A stretch of 64,000 bases of DNA, taken from assembly GCF_004358425.1 (NCBI RefSeq), contig NZ_CP037948.1:2352001-2416000 (forward strand), read 5' to 3'. The notes under the pieces are model-generated. The model had not been told where the DNA came from, ran no database searches, and saw nothing but the letters and a program-made list of their open reading frames with translations. Shown piece after piece: positions 23,521-38,062 of this stretch (position 1 is its first letter; every line of letters begins with the position of its first letter). The stretch comes from Qipengyuania sediminis (GTDB lineage Bacteria > Pseudomonadota > Alphaproteobacteria > Sphingomonadales > Sphingomonadaceae). Both the position numbers and the translations under genes were made by a program.

Positions 23521-24081
23521 ATGGGCGACATCGTGCCGTTCCGCCGCCGCCGGCCCTTCACGCGCCCGAGCGGCCATGGCTTTCGCGAGGCGACCTGGTG
23601 GGACGCCGCGCGCGAGAGTGGGCCGATCCTCCTCATGGCCCCGCTGGCCTTGTTCGCAGTGTTGACATTCTGGCCGCGCACCGGGGCCGTGCCGGACTTC
23701 GGGTCCGAGGCTCCGCCGGGCGCGATCGACCGCGAGAGCGCGAGCTTCACGCGCTGCGGCCGCTCTTCGGGCGGCAACTGCGTGATCGACGGCGACACCT
23801 TCCGCTATCGGGGCGAGAAGATCCGCGTCGCCGATATCAACACGCCCGAGGTCTCGAGTCCGCAGTGTGCCTACGAAGCGCAGCTCGGCGCCAGGGCCAC
23901 CGCCCGCTTCCACCAACTCCTCAACGAAGGCCCCTTTACGCTCGAACCCACCGACCGCGCCCAAGACAAATACGGCCGCGCGCTTTTCGTGGTGACGCGG
24001 GATGGTGAGAGCCTCGGCGCGGTGCTGGTCCGCGAAGGGCTCGCGGAGGAGTGGCAGGGCTATCGGCGGGAGTGGTGTTAG
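23521..24081 (+). CDS. Thermonuclease family protein (SNase-like), membrane-anchored
   Basis: A 186-residue protein with a single membrane segment (PILLMAPLALFAVLTFW) and an extracytoplasmic staphylococcal-nuclease-like domain. Catalytic signatures are IDGDTFRYRGEKIRVADINTPE and DKYGRALFVV, and the C-terminal helix reads LVREGLAEEW. It should cleave nucleic acid at the periplasmic face, or act in nutrient scavenging. The ATG at 23521 begins MGDIVPFRRRRP. The gene downstream is convergent and of lower GC. Confidence 0.88.
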   Translation: MGDIVPFRRRRPFTRPSGHGFREATWWDAARESGPILLMAPLALFAVLTFWPRTGAVPDFGSEAPPGAIDRESASFTRCGRSSGGNCVIDGDTFRYRGEKIRVADINTPEVSSPQCAYEAQLGARATARFHQLLNEGPFTLEPTDRAQDKYGRALFVVTRDGESLGAVLVREGLAEEWQGYRREWC

Positions 24082-24116
24082 TCACCAAGGCACGGTTGCG
24101 CAGGATTACTGTCTTC

Positions 24117-25727
24117 TTAAAAGTTTAGGTGCGCACCGCAGTGGCCAATGACAATAAGCCGCCGATCAGCGATCCATTCGAAGTGAATGCGAAGTGTCTC
24201 AGCTTTATTGTCAGCGACACCGATCTTCAGATGTCGCTCCATTTCCAACTCTGCACCTTCGAAAATGAATGTACGGCGTTGTCGCCCAGCTTTGGAGAGA
24301 GTTTCAGCTTCCTTCGCTGCATATGAAGCACCGAAACATTGTCGAGCGGTCACATCACTTCCGCCTTCAGCTAAGGTGGTCCAATAAGACGTGCTTAACG
24401 ACCAAAGAAGTTCAAACGCCTTGCTGCGGTGCCGGAAAGCGTAGGAGTCGCGCGCTGACTCCAAAGCGGATTCGAGAACAGTCACCCGATCAGGGAAAAG
24501 CGCTGTGACGATGCGCAGAGAAGTTTCGAGAGTAGGTTCGCGTTCGAAAACCGCTTGAACATCATCAGGAGCAAGCGGCGGATGTGTCTTCGAGCTTGCC
24601 TGCGCTAATCCGCGCATCCGCTCCCGAAGGGAATGATTCTCATCTTCGAGCCTCGCAAACTCAGCTTGTAGTTCTGTTAGCTTGGCCGCTTCTTCGGTCA
24701 TCAAGGCCTCTGCGGTCTGCCCGGCTTCTTTCGCTACATCGATCTCTGCGCGCAACGCCTCTACTTCGGCTGCCAACTGGTCTTCTCGGCTTCCGGCAGC
24801 CGAGTTTGCAAGCGCGCGAGATGCTGCTTGCCGTAGAAGTCCAACCCTCCAGAAACGTGCGCTGCCTTCAGAGTCCCGGAATTGCAGCGGCAATACGCGC
24901 GATGCAATCTGGTGAGTGGCGCGAGGATTGCTCCCGGAATGCGGACATAGCCAAAGCGGGTGTTTGAACGGGTCTTCTGTTTCGGTTTCAAGCCCTGGCA
25001 TATAAAGGCGGATCGCCCCGTTGAAGGTGGACATGCGCTTGCCGACCATACGCGTGAGCTCAAAACCAGCTTCCGTCGCTATGGAACGCAAGTGGGCAGT
25101 GCCTGATAATCTGTTCGCAAGTCGTTCAAGGTCAACTTGGGCACCGCCGGTGTCGTCAACCGATATGAGGACCACGGGCAAGCGACGTTCCGGATTATAT
25201 AGAAGACCGGCGAGTTGGCTTACCTCTTCGGTTAAGACCGGGACGACCTCGTTTGTGAGAGACTCGCCGTCCGCCTCAGCAGCAAGTTTGCCGATCAAGT
25301 CGCGCACGATGCGTGGACGGCTATGGTCAAACCCTGGATCATCAGCGCTGCATTGGCAGATGAGTTGGGCACCATATCTCGTAAGAGATCCGGCGCGCTG
25401 CTCGACGAAAATGTCAGTCAGCCACTTTCGGCCTGCGACCTTGTCGCCAAGATAAGTCGTGCGAGCAGCCCAGACATGCCCCTGCTCGTCCTGCAGCCGG
25501 AATGCATTGACGGTAGCACGGGAGCCGGCATCAAGCTGGAAGCTATCACCATGCGCGGCCTCGCTGGGTAACTCTACCGCAGCCGTGTTCGCGATCCATT
25601 CTACGGAGAGGGATACAGCCGCGTCGAATGCCGCCCTGTCAGAAAGATCAAAGATCGCCCTAGACACTGGCAGGTTACGTTGCGGGCGGTTCATTGCCGC
25701 ACTCTCAAGATCGGGCAAGGTCGCCAT
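24117..25727 (-). CDS. Unrecognised 536-aa protein with central coiled coil, coupled to nrdB
   Basis: I do not recognise this protein's function. Residues 1-300 form an alpha/beta region with a striking motif, VGKRMSTFNGAIRLYMPG (228-245), followed by DPFKHPLWL. Residues about 313-372 are a coiled coil (EVEALRAEID, ELQAEFARLEDENHSLRER), and the C-terminal 150 residues are globular. The ATG at 25727 lies 3 bp after the nrdB stop, with GGAG inside the nrdB end, so translation is probably coupled. Base composition is visibly lower in GC than all flanking genes, a sign of transfer. The motif recalls proteins from mobile or defence-type islands, but that is only an impression. Confidence 0.85.
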   Translation of the reverse strand: MATLPDLESAAMNRPQRNLPVSRAIFDLSDRAAFDAAVSLSVEWIANTAAVELPSEAAHGDSFQLDAGSRATVNAFRLQDEQGHVWAARTTYLGDKVAGRKWLTDIFVEQRAGSLTRYGAQLICQCSADDPGFDHSRPRIVRDLIGKLAAEADGESLTNEVVPVLTEEVSQLAGLLYNPERRLPVVLISVDDTGGAQVDLERLANRLSGTAHLRSIATEAGFELTRMVGKRMSTFNGAIRLYMPGLETETEDPFKHPLWLCPHSGSNPRATHQIASRVLPLQFRDSEGSARFWRVGLLRQAASRALANSAAGSREDQLAAEVEALRAEIDVAKEAGQTAEALMTEEAAKLTELQAEFARLEDENHSLRERMRGLAQASSKTHPPLAPDDVQAVFEREPTLETSLRIVTALFPDRVTVLESALESARDSYAFRHRSKAFELLWSLSTSYWTTLAEGGSDVTARQCFGASYAAKEAETLSKAGRQRRTFIFEGAELEMERHLKIGVADNKAETLRIHFEWIADRRLIVIGHCGAHLNF

Positions 25728-25730
25728 TGG

Positions 25731-26813
25731 TTACTCCGCCGCCACGCTACCCACACCACCCCGCGCATCAAACAACCCCGGCCCCGCGTCCGCATCGCCA
25801 GCGTCCACCTCGTTCGCCGCCTCGGCCTTCGCCTTCGCGCCCTGCCTCTTGTCGAAGCTCGACCAGACGTCGTTCCAGTTCCCCCGGGTCGCGCCCTTGG
25901 AATATTCCGTCGCGCGGGTTTCGAAGAAGTTGGCGTGCTCCACCCCGTTCAGCAGCGGGGCGAGCCAGGGGAGGGGGTGGTCCTCCACCATGTAGAGCGG
26001 CTGGAGGCCCAGCTGGCCCAGCCGCCAGTCGGCGATGTAGCGGATGTAGCGCTTGATCTCCTTCGCGGTCATCCCCGGCACCGGACCCATCTCGAAGGCG
26101 AGGTCGATGAAGGCATCCTCCAGCCGCACCGTCTTCTGGCAGATGTCGGTGATCTCCTCCTTGAGGAGCTTGGTATAGCAGTCGCGCTCGCGCACGAATT
26201 CGTGGAACAGGCGGATGATGCCTTCGCAATGCAGGCTCTCGTCGCGCACGCTCCAGCTGACGATCTGGCCCATCCCCTTCATCTTGTTGAAGCGGGGAAA
26301 GTTCATCAGCATGGCGAAGCTCGCGAACAGCTGCAGCCCTTCAGTGAAGCCGCCGAAGACCGCCAGCGTGCGCGCGATATCCGCATCGCTGTCGACGCCG
26401 AAGCCCTGCAGGAAATCGTGCTTGTCCTTCATCTCCTCGTACTCGAGGAAGGCGGAATACTCCGCCTCGGGCATGCCGATGGTGTCGAGCAAATGGCTGT
26501 AGGCGGCGATGTGCACCGTCTCCATATTGGAGAAGGCGGCCAGCATCATCTTGATCTCGGTCGGCTTGAACACCCGGCCGTAGTGCTCGTGATAGCAGTT
26601 CTGAACCTCGACATCGGCCTGGGTGAAGAAGCGGAAGATTTGCGTCAGGAGGTTGCGCTCGGTCTCGGTGATCTTCTGCGCCCAATCGCGGCAATCCTCG
26701 CCCAGCGGCACCTCCTCGGGCATCCAGTGGATCTGCTGCTGGCGCTTCCAGAAGTCGTAGGCCCAGGGATACTCGAAGGGCTTATAGGTCTTGCGGGCTT
26801 CGAGCAGCGACAT
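25731..26813 (-). CDS. nrdB: Ribonucleoside-diphosphate reductase subunit beta
   Basis: A 360-residue class I small subunit that houses the diiron/tyrosyl radical cofactor for deoxyribonucleotide synthesis. Ligand-bearing helices are visible in LLTQIFRFFTQADVEVQNCYHEHY, FSNMETVHIAAYSHLLDTIG and SWSVRDESLHCEGIIRLFHEF. The start MSLLEARKTYKPFEYPWAYDFW is typical of the alphaproteobacterial form. The partner nrdA is about 9 kb away in the opposite orientation. I saw no GAAC-N7-GAAC box upstream of nrdB, unlike nrdA. A lower-GC gene has inserted directly behind it. Confidence 0.95.
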   Translation of the reverse strand: MSLLEARKTYKPFEYPWAYDFWKRQQQIHWMPEEVPLGEDCRDWAQKITETERNLLTQIFRFFTQADVEVQNCYHEHYGRVFKPTEIKMMLAAFSNMETVHIAAYSHLLDTIGMPEAEYSAFLEYEEMKDKHDFLQGFGVDSDADIARTLAVFGGFTEGLQLFASFAMLMNFPRFNKMKGMGQIVSWSVRDESLHCEGIIRLFHEFVRERDCYTKLLKEEITDICQKTVRLEDAFIDLAFEMGPVPGMTAKEIKRYIRYIADWRLGQLGLQPLYMVEDHPLPWLAPLLNGVEHANFFETRATEYSKGATRGNWNDVWSSFDKRQGAKAKAEAANEVDAGDADAGPGLFDARGGVGSVAAE

Positions 26814-26907
26814 CTGGCATCTCCGGGCGTTTACGCGGCCGGCAGGTATAGGCGCTCGGCTCGCGGAATCGAAGCGATTGGTTGGCGATTCGGCGGGGAT
26901 AAGGGCG

Positions 26908-26932
26908 GGAACGGGCGCCGGTGCATAGGGTT
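26908..26932 (+). promoter_or_regulatory. EcfG-type general stress promoter candidate
   Basis: GGAAC at 26908-26912 and GGTT at 26929-26932 are separated by 16 bases, close to the alphaproteobacterial EcfG pattern GGAAC-N16/17-CGTT. They lie 24 bp upstream of the start of the small hydrophilic protein gene at 26956. One -10 base differs from the consensus. Confidence 0.5.
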
Positions 26933-26955
26933 AATGAGAGCGAAGGAGCTTTCCC

Positions 26956-27219
26956 ATGGGCGAGTACGAACCCGACGACAGCCGCGACGTGACGCTGTCC
27001 GACCACCAGGCGCCGGGCGAACCGCCGCGCACCGGCCCGCGCGAGGATGAAGCGCGCGCGAAGGCCGCCGGAGGGCAGGCTGGCACCCAGATGAGCGGCC
27101 AGGACGGCGCGATCCCCGATGCCACCGGGGGCCGCCCGGTGGACGAGGCAGCGCTCGCCAAGGATGCCGAGGACGCGGCCCGCGCGCAGCCTTCGCAAGA
27201 TCGCACCGGCGGCTCCTGA
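26956..27219 (+). CDS. Small hydrophilic disordered protein (87 aa)
   Basis: A protein made mostly of D, E, G, A, P and R (MGEYEPDDSRDVTLSDHQAP, then DEARAKAAGGQAGTQMSG) with no hydrophobic core or cysteine. It resembles the hydrophilin-like stress proteins common in alphaproteobacteria. The ribosome-binding site AAGGAG precedes the ATG, and an EcfG-like promoter lies immediately upstream. Production in stress or stationary phase is therefore likely. Function is unknown. It diverges from nrdB. Confidence 0.72.
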   Translation: MGEYEPDDSRDVTLSDHQAPGEPPRTGPREDEARAKAAGGQAGTQMSGQDGAIPDATGGRPVDEAALAKDAEDAARAQPSQDRTGGS

Positions 27220-36049: not shown

Positions 36050-38062
36050 ATGGATTTCAGAAGCGGAGACGATGCGGCGGTGGAACGCGAGCTCGAGAGC
36101 GCCGTCGCAGCGGACGAGGCCCCACGAAAGGCGATGACGATGACCGCAGAGGACAAGGGCAGCGCTGCGCTGGCCGAAGCATCCGCCGCCGCCATGGCCG
36201 AGGCGGGCAAGGCAATCGCGGGCGCCGCCAAGCGCGCCGCGGACGAGGACAGCAAGAAGATCAACGACCGCCGCTTCGCCGTCGTGACCGATCCTGCGCG
36301 AGACGATCTCCTCACCGACTTTGGGAAGGAGACGCTGACCGACCGATATCTGCTGCCCGGCGAAAGCTATCAGGACCTCTTCGCGCGCGTCGCCGATGCC
36401 TATGCCGACGATGAGGCGCACGCGCAGCGGCTCTACGACTACATCTCGAAGTTGTGGTTCATGCCCGCGACCCCGGTGCTCTCGAACGGCGGCACCAATC
36501 GCGGCTTGCCAATCTCATGCTATTTGAACTCGGTCTCCGACAGTCTCGACGGCATCGTCGGCACCTGGAACGAGAACGTCTGGCTTGCCAGCAAGGGCGG
36601 GGGCATCGGCACCTATTGGGGCAATGTCCGCGGCATCGGCGAGCCCGTCGGCCTCAATGGCAAGACCAGCGGCATCATCCCCTTCGTGCGGGTGATGGAC
36701 AGCCTGACGCTGGCGATCAGCCAGGGCTCGCTCCGGCGCGGCTCGGCGGCCTGCTACCTCGATATCTCGCATCCCGAGATCGAGGAGTTCCTGGAAATCC
36801 GCAAGCCCAGCGGCGACTTCAACCGCAAGGCGCTGAACCTCCATCATGGCGTGCTCGTCACCGATGCCTTCATGGAAGCGGTTCGCGCCGGCGAGAGCTT
36901 CAACCTTCTCTCCCCACGCGACGGCAGCGTGCGCAAGACCGTCGATGCGCGCAGCCTGTTCCAGAAGCTGGTCGAAACCCGGCTCGCGACCGGAGAGCCC
37001 TATATCGTCTTTTCTGACACCGTGAACCGCGCGATGCCCAAGCATCACCGCGATCTGGGGCTCAAGGTCTCGACCTCGAACCTGTGCGCGGAGATCACGC
37101 TGCCGACCGGCATCGACCATCTCGGCAACGACCGCACCGCGGTGTGCTGCCTCTCCAGCCTCAATCTCGAGACCTGGGACGAATGGGAAGGCGACAAGAC
37201 CTTCATCGAGGATGTGATGCGCTTCCTCGACAATGTCCTGCAGGACTACATCGACCGCGCCCCTGACGAGATGGCGCGCGCCAAATATTCGGCGGAGCGG
37301 GAGCGCAGCGTTGGCATGGGGGTGATGGGCTTCCACTCCTTCCTGCAGATGAAGGGCATCGGCTTCGAAAGCCCCATGGCGAAGGTGTGGAACCTTCGCA
37401 TGTTCAAGCACATCGCCGCCAAGGCGGAGGAAGCCTCGCTCTTGCTCGCGCAGGAGCGCGGGCCGTGCCCCGACGCCGCCGACATGGGCGCGATGGAGCG
37501 CTTTTCCTGCAAGATGGCGATCGCGCCCACCGCCTCCATCAGCATCATCTGCGGCGGGACCAGCGCCTGCATCGAGCCGATCCCGGCGAATATCTACACC
37601 CACAAGACGCTTTCGGGCAGCTTCGTGGTGAAGAACCCCTATCTCGAGAAACTGCTCGAGAAGAAGAGCAAGAATTCCACCAATGTCTGGAACTCGATCC
37701 TGGAGAAAGGCGGCAGCGTCCAGCACCTCGATTTCCTCAGCGCCGAAGAAAAGGCGGTCTACAAGACCAGCTTCGAGATCGATCAGCGCTGGCTCTTGGA
37801 GTTCGCCGGCGACCGCGCGCCTTTCATCGACCAGGCGCAGAGCCTCAACCTCTTCATCCCCGCCGATGTCGACAAGTGGGACCTTGCGATGCTCCACTTC
37901 CAGGCCTGGGAGAAGGGCATCAAGTCGCTCTATTACCTGCGGTCGATGAGCGTCCAGCGCGCCGGCTTCGCCGGAGGGGTGGAGGCGGACAACACGGCGG
38001 AGGCGCCGGTGATCGAGCTCGCCGGGCAGACCGATTACGAGGAGTGTTTGGCCTGCCAGTGA
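36050..38062 (+). CDS. nrdA: Ribonucleoside-diphosphate reductase subunit alpha
   Basis: A 670-residue catalytic subunit of class I ribonucleotide reductase. Visible are the substrate-site cysteine in LPISCYLNSVSDSLDG, the N-x-C-x-E radical-site segment SNLCAEITLP, YKTSFEIDQRWLLEFA, and a C-terminal tail ending in the redox cysteines CLACQ. The first 80 residues are alanine-rich and variable. The ATG at 36050 follows GGGAGCGAG; the open frame further upstream crosses the LexA-type box and is leader. The partner nrdB is on the other strand at 26 kb. The stop overlaps the next gene by GTGA. Confidence 0.95.
   Translation: MDFRSGDDAAVERELESAVAADEAPRKAMTMTAEDKGSAALAEASAAAMAEAGKAIAGAAKRAADEDSKKINDRRFAVVTDPARDDLLTDFGKETLTDRYLLPGESYQDLFARVADAYADDEAHAQRLYDYISKLWFMPATPVLSNGGTNRGLPISCYLNSVSDSLDGIVGTWNENVWLASKGGGIGTYWGNVRGIGEPVGLNGKTSGIIPFVRVMDSLTLAISQGSLRRGSAACYLDISHPEIEEFLEIRKPSGDFNRKALNLHHGVLVTDAFMEAVRAGESFNLLSPRDGSVRKTVDARSLFQKLVETRLATGEPYIVFSDTVNRAMPKHHRDLGLKVSTSNLCAEITLPTGIDHLGNDRTAVCCLSSLNLETWDEWEGDKTFIEDVMRFLDNVLQDYIDRAPDEMARAKYSAERERSVGMGVMGFHSFLQMKGIGFESPMAKVWNLRMFKHIAAKAEEASLLLAQERGPCPDAADMGAMERFSCKMAIAPTASISIICGGTSACIEPIPANIYTHKTLSGSFVVKNPYLEKLLEKKSKNSTNVWNSILEKGGSVQHLDFLSAEEKAVYKTSFEIDQRWLLEFAGDRAPFIDQAQSLNLFIPADVDKWDLAMLHFQAWEKGIKSLYYLRSMSVQRAGFAGGVEADNTAEAPVIELAGQTDYEECLACQ

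Follow-up and report, generated by a model that had tools for sequence, protein, structure and literature searches.

A HEC-07 family candidate anti-phage gene directly behind nrdB in Qipengyuania sediminis, at a variable site rich in defence genes

The gene behind nrdB

Within a 64 kb stretch of the Qipengyuania sediminis genome (contig NZ_CP037948.1, positions 2,352,001 to 2,416,000; hereafter the window, by whose coordinates features are given) we encountered a gene encoding a protein of 536 aa with an ATG start (24117..25727, minus strand), located directly downstream of nrdB. The latter encodes the small subunit of ribonucleotide reductase (25731..26813, minus strand; PF00268, Ribonuc_red_sm, E 1.1e-77) and is the anchor of the candidate defence hotspot described below. 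An earlier note on this DNA, whose span of 24117-26813 takes in nrdB as well as the 536-aa gene, had recognised no family for the product; this stands for Pfam and NCBIfam, which gave no match above the curated cut-off, but not for PADLOC. The profile search that it proposed returned the PADLOC HEC-07 profile PDLC04161 (E 1.7e-86), which covers residues 14-535 of the protein and profile positions 17-549 of 553 and is therefore matched over its full length. By this match the gene is a member of a known candidate anti-phage family, HEC-07, and does not represent a new one.

The layout is as the earlier note had described it. The ATG lies 3 nt (CCA) past the nrdB TAA, and a Shine-Dalgarno-like GGCGGAG, read from the sequence within the final nrdB codons (AAE; 25734..25740, minus strand), ends 6 nt upstream of this ATG. 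The base composition is likewise unlike both flanks. The guanine plus cytosine (GC) content is 0.562 and the third-position value (GC3) 0.553, whereas nrdB has a GC of 0.628 and a GC3 of 0.903; the corresponding values are 0.699 and 0.872 in the SNase-like gene (23521..24081, plus strand; PF00565, E 1.7e-8), which bounds the pocket on its far side here. When segments of 1611 bp were taken at steps of 100 across the whole 64 kb, 1 of 624 had a GC as low as this, namely the one over the 536-aa gene itself. This gene alone makes up the content of the pocket here, as delimited in a 52-genome comparison from the nrdB stop to the SNase stop (24082..25730), and its composition and layout bear out the view that a foreign gene was placed exactly behind nrdB.

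This arrangement suggests read-through from nrdB into the 536-aa gene, and co-expression of the two is likely on the same grounds. A consensus promoter scan of 23900-27100 yielded two minus-strand sites, both within the 536-aa gene, and has little power, as it found no minus-strand promoter for nrdB either and so missed that gene's own promoter. When the window was searched for a further copy of the nrdB end, the nrdB end itself was the only match. The nrdA gene (Ribonuc_red_lgC; 36515-37939, plus strand) is found approximately 10 kb from nrdB on the opposite strand, and nrdA and nrdB are therefore not part of one operon here.

HEC-07 relatives and their neighbours

The HEC designation stands for "Hma-embedded candidate" and comes from the guilt-by-embedding work of Payne and colleagues (bioRxiv 2024, doi 10.1101/2024.01.29.577857, as cited in PMC12988326). 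Several HECs, HEC-06 among them, proved antiviral in assays, although the passages of PMC12988326 concerned with them do not name HEC-07. A literature search, with preprints outside its scope, returned no paper on HEC-07 and none on its domain architecture or effector. The PADLOC profile NsnC also matches the protein (residues 328-535, E 5.4e-9); among the papers listed for NsnC, none was about this system by its title. Searches of the whole protein against Pfam, NCBIfam and PHROGs gave weak matches only, mostly in the coiled coil, and the Pfam search revealed no enzyme family.

A protein search assembled 64 proteins including the query, mostly from short metagenomic contigs. Among 61 genomes searched for relatives three match, these being the present genome together with G011 and G014 (37-38% identity), and at E 1e-20 the HEC-07 profile matches 4 of 60 genus genomes. 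The fourth, G004, encodes a distant protein that aligns with profile positions 340-551 only (E 1.1e-33); the 513-aa open frame at this locus (L178, G004:C2:5031-5657) joins the HEC-07 C-terminal part (RHL...RIYY...IVIG...HLPN) to a different N-terminal part. The earlier note had named two outcomes that would speak against its proposal, homologues of normal GC at this position throughout the family and a clear match to a housekeeping family; among the genus genomes only this one carries a HEC-07 match behind nrdB, and no housekeeping match was found. We considered whether the C-terminal domain is a mobile module, but all 14 of the 14 short homologues viewed are HEC-07 proteins cut or late-started at the N-terminus and thus provide no evidence for one.

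Relatives are also found on plasmids, where 135 of 72,556 records match by tblastn at E 1e-10 (122 from Pseudomonas and 9 from Klebsiella) and one match covers more than 80% of the query. In all three plasmid neighbourhoods viewed the relative is a lone hypothetical gene. No match at E 1e-3 was present in 50,697 phage records, and one viral contig (L170) has a HEC-07 match. On a Klebsiella pneumoniae plasmid of 111 kb (L173) the HEC-07 relative has 5'-3' exonuclease and recombinase genes next to it, an arrangement that we take to be reminiscent of phage-plasmids.

The neighbours of homologues, which the earlier note had singled out for inspection, are of the defence type in several cases. Neighbours were listed for L005-L010, G014 and G011 (L011 and L012 were left out), and names such as hsd-like and Jet-like were assigned by eye from protein starts and not by profile search. 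An hsdM-like gene precedes the relative in G011, G014 and Aurantiacibacter (L008), accompanied in G011 by an hsdS-like open reading frame (ORF), and in all three the relative runs 4 bp into the start of an hsdR-like gene of 1077 aa. In L010 the ORFs that come after the relative are JetB- and JetC-like and belong to a Wadjet-like cluster. Embedding in defence operons is thus seen for the relatives in G011, G014, L008 and L010; those in L006, L007 and L009 stand alone, and the window copy is likewise not embedded. A type I restriction-modification (R-M)-like unit thus recurs in three genomes (L049, L050 and L008), in which the HEC-07 relative stands immediately ahead of the hsdR-like gene and a gene of 236 aa follows.

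Domain architecture and a candidate active site

The predicted structure comprises an N-terminal helix-grip-like domain (residues 14-149; 25281..25688, minus strand), a thioredoxin-like fold that lacks the CXXC motif (residues 157-282; 24882..25259, minus strand), a coiled coil (residues 314-376; 24600..24788, minus strand) and a C-terminal RelE-like domain (residues 412-536; 24120..24494, minus strand) that includes H499, K501, R513 and H533. The central coiled coil noted previously is modelled as a single long helix, and the weak matches to this region are to coiled-coil proteins. The motif VGKRMSTFNGAIRLYMPG, also noted previously, occupies residues 228-245 (24993..25046, minus strand) and is largely kept in an alignment of 60 homologues, in which S233 is invariant and G229, G237, R240, Y242, P244 and G245 are nearly so. 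In the same alignment H499, R513 and H533 are invariant and K501 nearly invariant, and all four residues are invariant in a second alignment (A5).

The resemblance to RelE was first seen from the H-x-K...R...GxH pattern, prior to fold searches. With the C-terminal domain as query, the first 12 rows of the Foldseek search are RelE/ParE-superfamily or other toxin-antitoxin chains, and 43 of 50 rows of the VIA fold search are chains of these kinds, nearly all of them by title; scores are weak in both searches. No row under E 0.001 was obtained when Foldseek was run with the whole model. Alignment of the C-terminal domain by hhalign against YafQ and ParE sets gave nothing above controls, in a comparison whose positive control was itself weak, and sequence searches of the PDB returned coiled coils or chance matches only. 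A genuine YafQ-family toxin gene (L137; G000:C1:1107809-1108090, E 2.9e-27) is present in the same genome, outside the window.

It is possible, though we consider it the less probable reading, that the protein is a HEC-07 defence protein whose C-terminal domain does not cut mRNA in the manner of RelE but serves as a ParE-like gyrase poison or as a binding or adaptor domain, with the thioredoxin-like or helix-grip part perhaps the active one. The weak fold scores of the C-terminal domain, the want of sequence support for it, the ParE chains among its fold matches and the highest Z score, which belongs to the thioredoxin-like part, are all consistent with this. On the other hand, RelE, YoeB, HigB and YafQ chains head the fold list, the thioredoxin-like part is without the CXXC motif, and the invariance of H499, R513 and H533 across the 60 homologues argues for the RelE-like domain as the candidate effector.

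The pocket behind nrdB varies across the genus

Core genes lie on both flanks of the pocket, with an nrdB match in 60/60 genus genomes and argB downstream in 51/56. An SNase-like match (E 1e-8) occurs behind nrdB in 35/56 relatives, and starts 1650 bp behind nrdB here compared with 31 bp in G080. We used the 57 of 60 genomes with a readable nrdB end, after removal of G002, G062 and G012, which contain nrdB fragments only. A pairwise test was carried out on the 52 genomes, including this one, with more than 7 kb downstream (G073, which has no located flank, was left out), taking an alignment of 150 bp or more as the criterion. Over the final 500 bp of nrdB 1326/1326 pairs align, in contrast to 16/1326 over the first 500 bp past the stop, where the sequences fall into 41 clusters. 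At five control junctions further on, 1187/1275, 457/1225, 1176/1176, 674/1128 and 933/990 pairs align (37-100%). The comparison of relatives suggested in the earlier note thus reveals a site whose content differs from genome to genome, and because there are 41 clusters in 52 genomes, adjacency to nrdB characterises the site and not the HEC-07 gene.

Between nrdB and the first flank gene that could be recognised lie from 31 bp, in the almost empty site of G080, to 9.4 kb, with a median of about 2 kb. GC averages 0.54-0.56 over the first kb behind nrdB as against about 0.66 beyond 2 kb (53 genomes), and in 41/52 genomes this first kb lies more than 5 GC points under the background of its own genome. 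All 57 NrdB proteins end in AAE, with GAG as the last nrdB codon in 55/57 genomes, while the sequence past the stop differs almost everywhere. The GCG GCG GAG end was considered as a signal at the DNA level; among the conserved columns of nrdB, 6 of 17 for Ala and 6 of 24 for Glu show equally uniform codons, and such a signal is therefore not claimed.

Occupants of the pocket

Occupant ORFs were chosen by eye, giving a list of 53, from which G079, G021 and G025 were dropped as doubtful; the remaining 50 and HEC-07 formed the PADLOC set, and of the 53, 32 were also scanned singly with Pfam and 10 with PADLOC. Profile searches revealed a wide range of families, including an IrrE-type peptidase (G072), DndB (G073), an MT-A70 methylase with a BglII endonuclease (G030), a C5 methylase with an NgoMIV endonuclease (G061), TIR (G066 and G016), a TIR-like effector (G011), SIR2_2 (G063), Abi_2 (G035), putAbiC (G083), FRG (G070), a metallo-beta-lactamase fold (G024), HNH_2 (G004), SocA/Panacea (G017), DUF5343, which corresponds to PADLOC PDC-M34A (G069), a weak PDC-M28C (G082, 1e-5), DUF4160 (G074) and an OLD-like ATPase-TOPRIM behind a DUF4160-like ORF (G008). 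With HEC-07 included, 19 genomes have profile-assigned defence or defence-like occupants and eight more are tied to these by similarity (G006, G031, G078, G018, G068, G075, G076 and G003), so that such families are found behind nrdB in 27/57 genomes. A stricter count, without IrrE, FRG, the beta-lactamase fold, HNH_2, DUF4160 alone and G003, gives 21/57. The 51 occupants score with 182 PADLOC models at 1e-5, a tally of models, many of which describe the same methylases, and not of scoring members; by comparison, 49 control ORFs beyond argB, among them 26 copies of a single conserved thioredoxin-like gene, score with no PADLOC family.

Other occupants are not of this kind or have no family. They include a histidine kinase (G001), sulfotransferase- or sulfatase-like ORFs recognised by eye (G005, G029, G034 and G036), a weak AbiJ match (G026), DUF4145 (G014), DUF4747 (G009) and several without any family. 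DUF4160-like ORFs are recurrent occupants and stand directly behind nrdB at L098 (G008), L043 (G074), L044 (G003), L082 (G028) and L103 (another genus); that of L043 is confirmed by Pfam and the remainder were named by look. The genes at L047:4624-5520, L073:1401-2186, L068:1320-1922, L069:1290-1832, L080:1323-2111, L087:1851-2495 and L115:485-1459 matched neither Pfam nor PADLOC within the limits applied and are mostly of low GC. We regard such genes behind nrdB as candidates for undescribed defence genes.

The conserved flanks, the differing content and the richness in defence families relative to the 49 control ORFs fit a core defence hotspot. A doubtful alternative is that the pocket is a permissive insertion sink, in which harmless arrivals are tolerated and the share of defence genes mirrors that of the most mobile genes in general. 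The non-defence and family-less occupants, the near-empty sites of G080 (31 bp) and G022 (305 bp), and a first ORF opposite to nrdB in 14/49 genomes speak for a sink. The defence or defence-like families in 27/57 genomes speak against it, as does the strand bias, whereby the first ORF lies on the nrdB strand in 35 of the 49 scoreable genomes out of 53 (p 0.004), with a leftmost start at most 20 bp from the nrdB stop in 15 of these 35 and at most 100 bp in 31. These ORFs were picked mechanically and the counts are approximate, since at least one pick (G003) sits in a broken frame.

Other genera and route of entry

In other genera of the family 56 genomes had an nrdB match, and the comparison covered the 29 loci that scored best. 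Over the final 500 bp of nrdB 406/406 pairs align, and over the 500 bp behind it 1/406. Among the occupants are a C5 methylase, a BglII-like endonuclease, an AAA_21 ATPase that scores with AriA and GajA, PDC-S59, NACHT and Schlafen AlbA_2, while further loci have ordinary-looking high-GC DNA behind nrdB. Four of ten ORFs picked by eye score with PADLOC and six do not (eight of the ten were also scanned with Pfam); a DrmA score among the four is probably due to a shared ATPase fold.

DNA bearing its own nrdB end would, on recombining into nrdB, leave a second copy of that end. Decayed second nrdB ends (the last 170-200 bp), in the nrdB direction, lie beyond the insert in 2 of 54 genomes, namely at 5226-5387 of L043 (G074:C42) and at 8902-9066 of L044 (G003:C4), with 79% and 88% identity, respectively, and we read them as traces of such recombination. 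No clear direct repeat of the nrdB end was found on the far side in the other 52 of 54 genomes, this one included; short weak matches in four further genomes are no better than control pieces. No single type of mobile element is in view at the pocket, among ORFs inspected without a systematic recombinase scan. The simplest account may be that the conserved flanks allow cargo to be exchanged by homologous recombination, a route proposed for cDHS1 of Pseudomonas aeruginosa in the part of PMC10250203 consulted.

Interpretation and significance

Phage defence, which the earlier note had offered as a guess, emerges as the likeliest role of the 536-aa candidate gene because of the HEC-07 match, the relatives in R-M-like operons and beside a Wadjet-like cluster, and the defence genes that occupy the same site in other genomes. 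The reading that we favour, with reasonable but not strong confidence, is that of a horizontally acquired, single-gene anti-phage candidate of the HEC-07 family, situated in a core defence hotspot, expressed with the nrdB operon and provided with a RelE-like effector. Most likely the gene would share an operon with nrdB, in second place, and would be transcribed and translated there with the nrdB end as its ribosome-binding site. The helix-grip and thioredoxin-like domains may keep the protein inactive or sense infection, and the coiled coil may bring about an oligomer. Once released, the RelE-like domain would cut mRNA, probably on the ribosome, and the resulting halt in translation would stop phage production, an abortive outcome.

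Two further explanations of the gene fare less well. It is improbable that it is an addiction-type or selfish cargo, a toxin without benefit kept by its coupling to an essential gene, for although the toxin-like fold and the DUF4160 genes that other genomes have at this position agree with this, the insert is a single gene with no partner gene alongside. It is highly unlikely that the gene acts with nrdB in nucleotide metabolism, a role at which the earlier note had alternatively guessed, and a link to dNTP supply finds no support. The position 3 bp behind nrdB speaks for such a role; against it are the 41 clusters at the site, the restriction of the profile match to 4/60 genus genomes (behind nrdB in this one only), the homologues elsewhere in R-M-like operons and on plasmids, and Pfam, which shows no enzyme. 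A search for NrdR-box-like sequences gave no match in the window.

For the HEC-07 candidate at a defence hotspot, a broader and distinctly tentative proposal can be made, in which the nrdB stop would be a family-wide landing pad for the swapping of single defence systems. Recombination would proceed via the nrdB end and the argB-side flank, the promoter and built-in ribosome-binding site of an essential gene whose activity is required during DNA replication would express newcomers at once, and HEC-07 would represent a fused sensor and RelE-type mRNA cutter. A fixed address, the first genes behind nrdB, would provide a ready list of the defence systems in the family, and the unfamiliar low-GC genes found there are strong candidates for new ones. 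HEC-07 gains a concrete mechanistic hypothesis, RelE-type mRNA cutting, and the question is raised whether defence cargo is favoured behind essential genes through borrowed expression.

Comparison with known systems

A literature search, with preprints and most subscription papers outside its scope, found no report of a defence hotspot at nrdB or ribonucleotide reductase genes, and in word searches of their main text nrd genes are not mentioned in two hotspot surveys (PMC10121019 and PMC10250203). As far as PMC10250203 was consulted, the closest parallels are cDHS1 and cDHS2 of P. aeruginosa, which share with the nrdB pocket fixed core flanks, varying defence systems and the lack of a single mobile element in view. 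The nrdB pocket differs from these in its small size, with frequently no more than one or two genes, in beginning directly at the stop codon of an essential gene, in the frequent same-strand orientation of its content, and in spanning the genera of one family and not one species. With the HEC-07 systems of PADLOC the window gene shares a full-length profile match to a family whose relatives are embedded in defence operons, but it differs in standing alone behind nrdB. NsnC resembles the protein over residues 328-535 and has a shorter profile of 316 positions. Cami1, a CARF-RelE effector (Mogila et al. 2023, as described in part in PMC11229360), offers a further comparison, from which HEC-07 differs in having no CARF match in profile searches and a weak RelE assignment.

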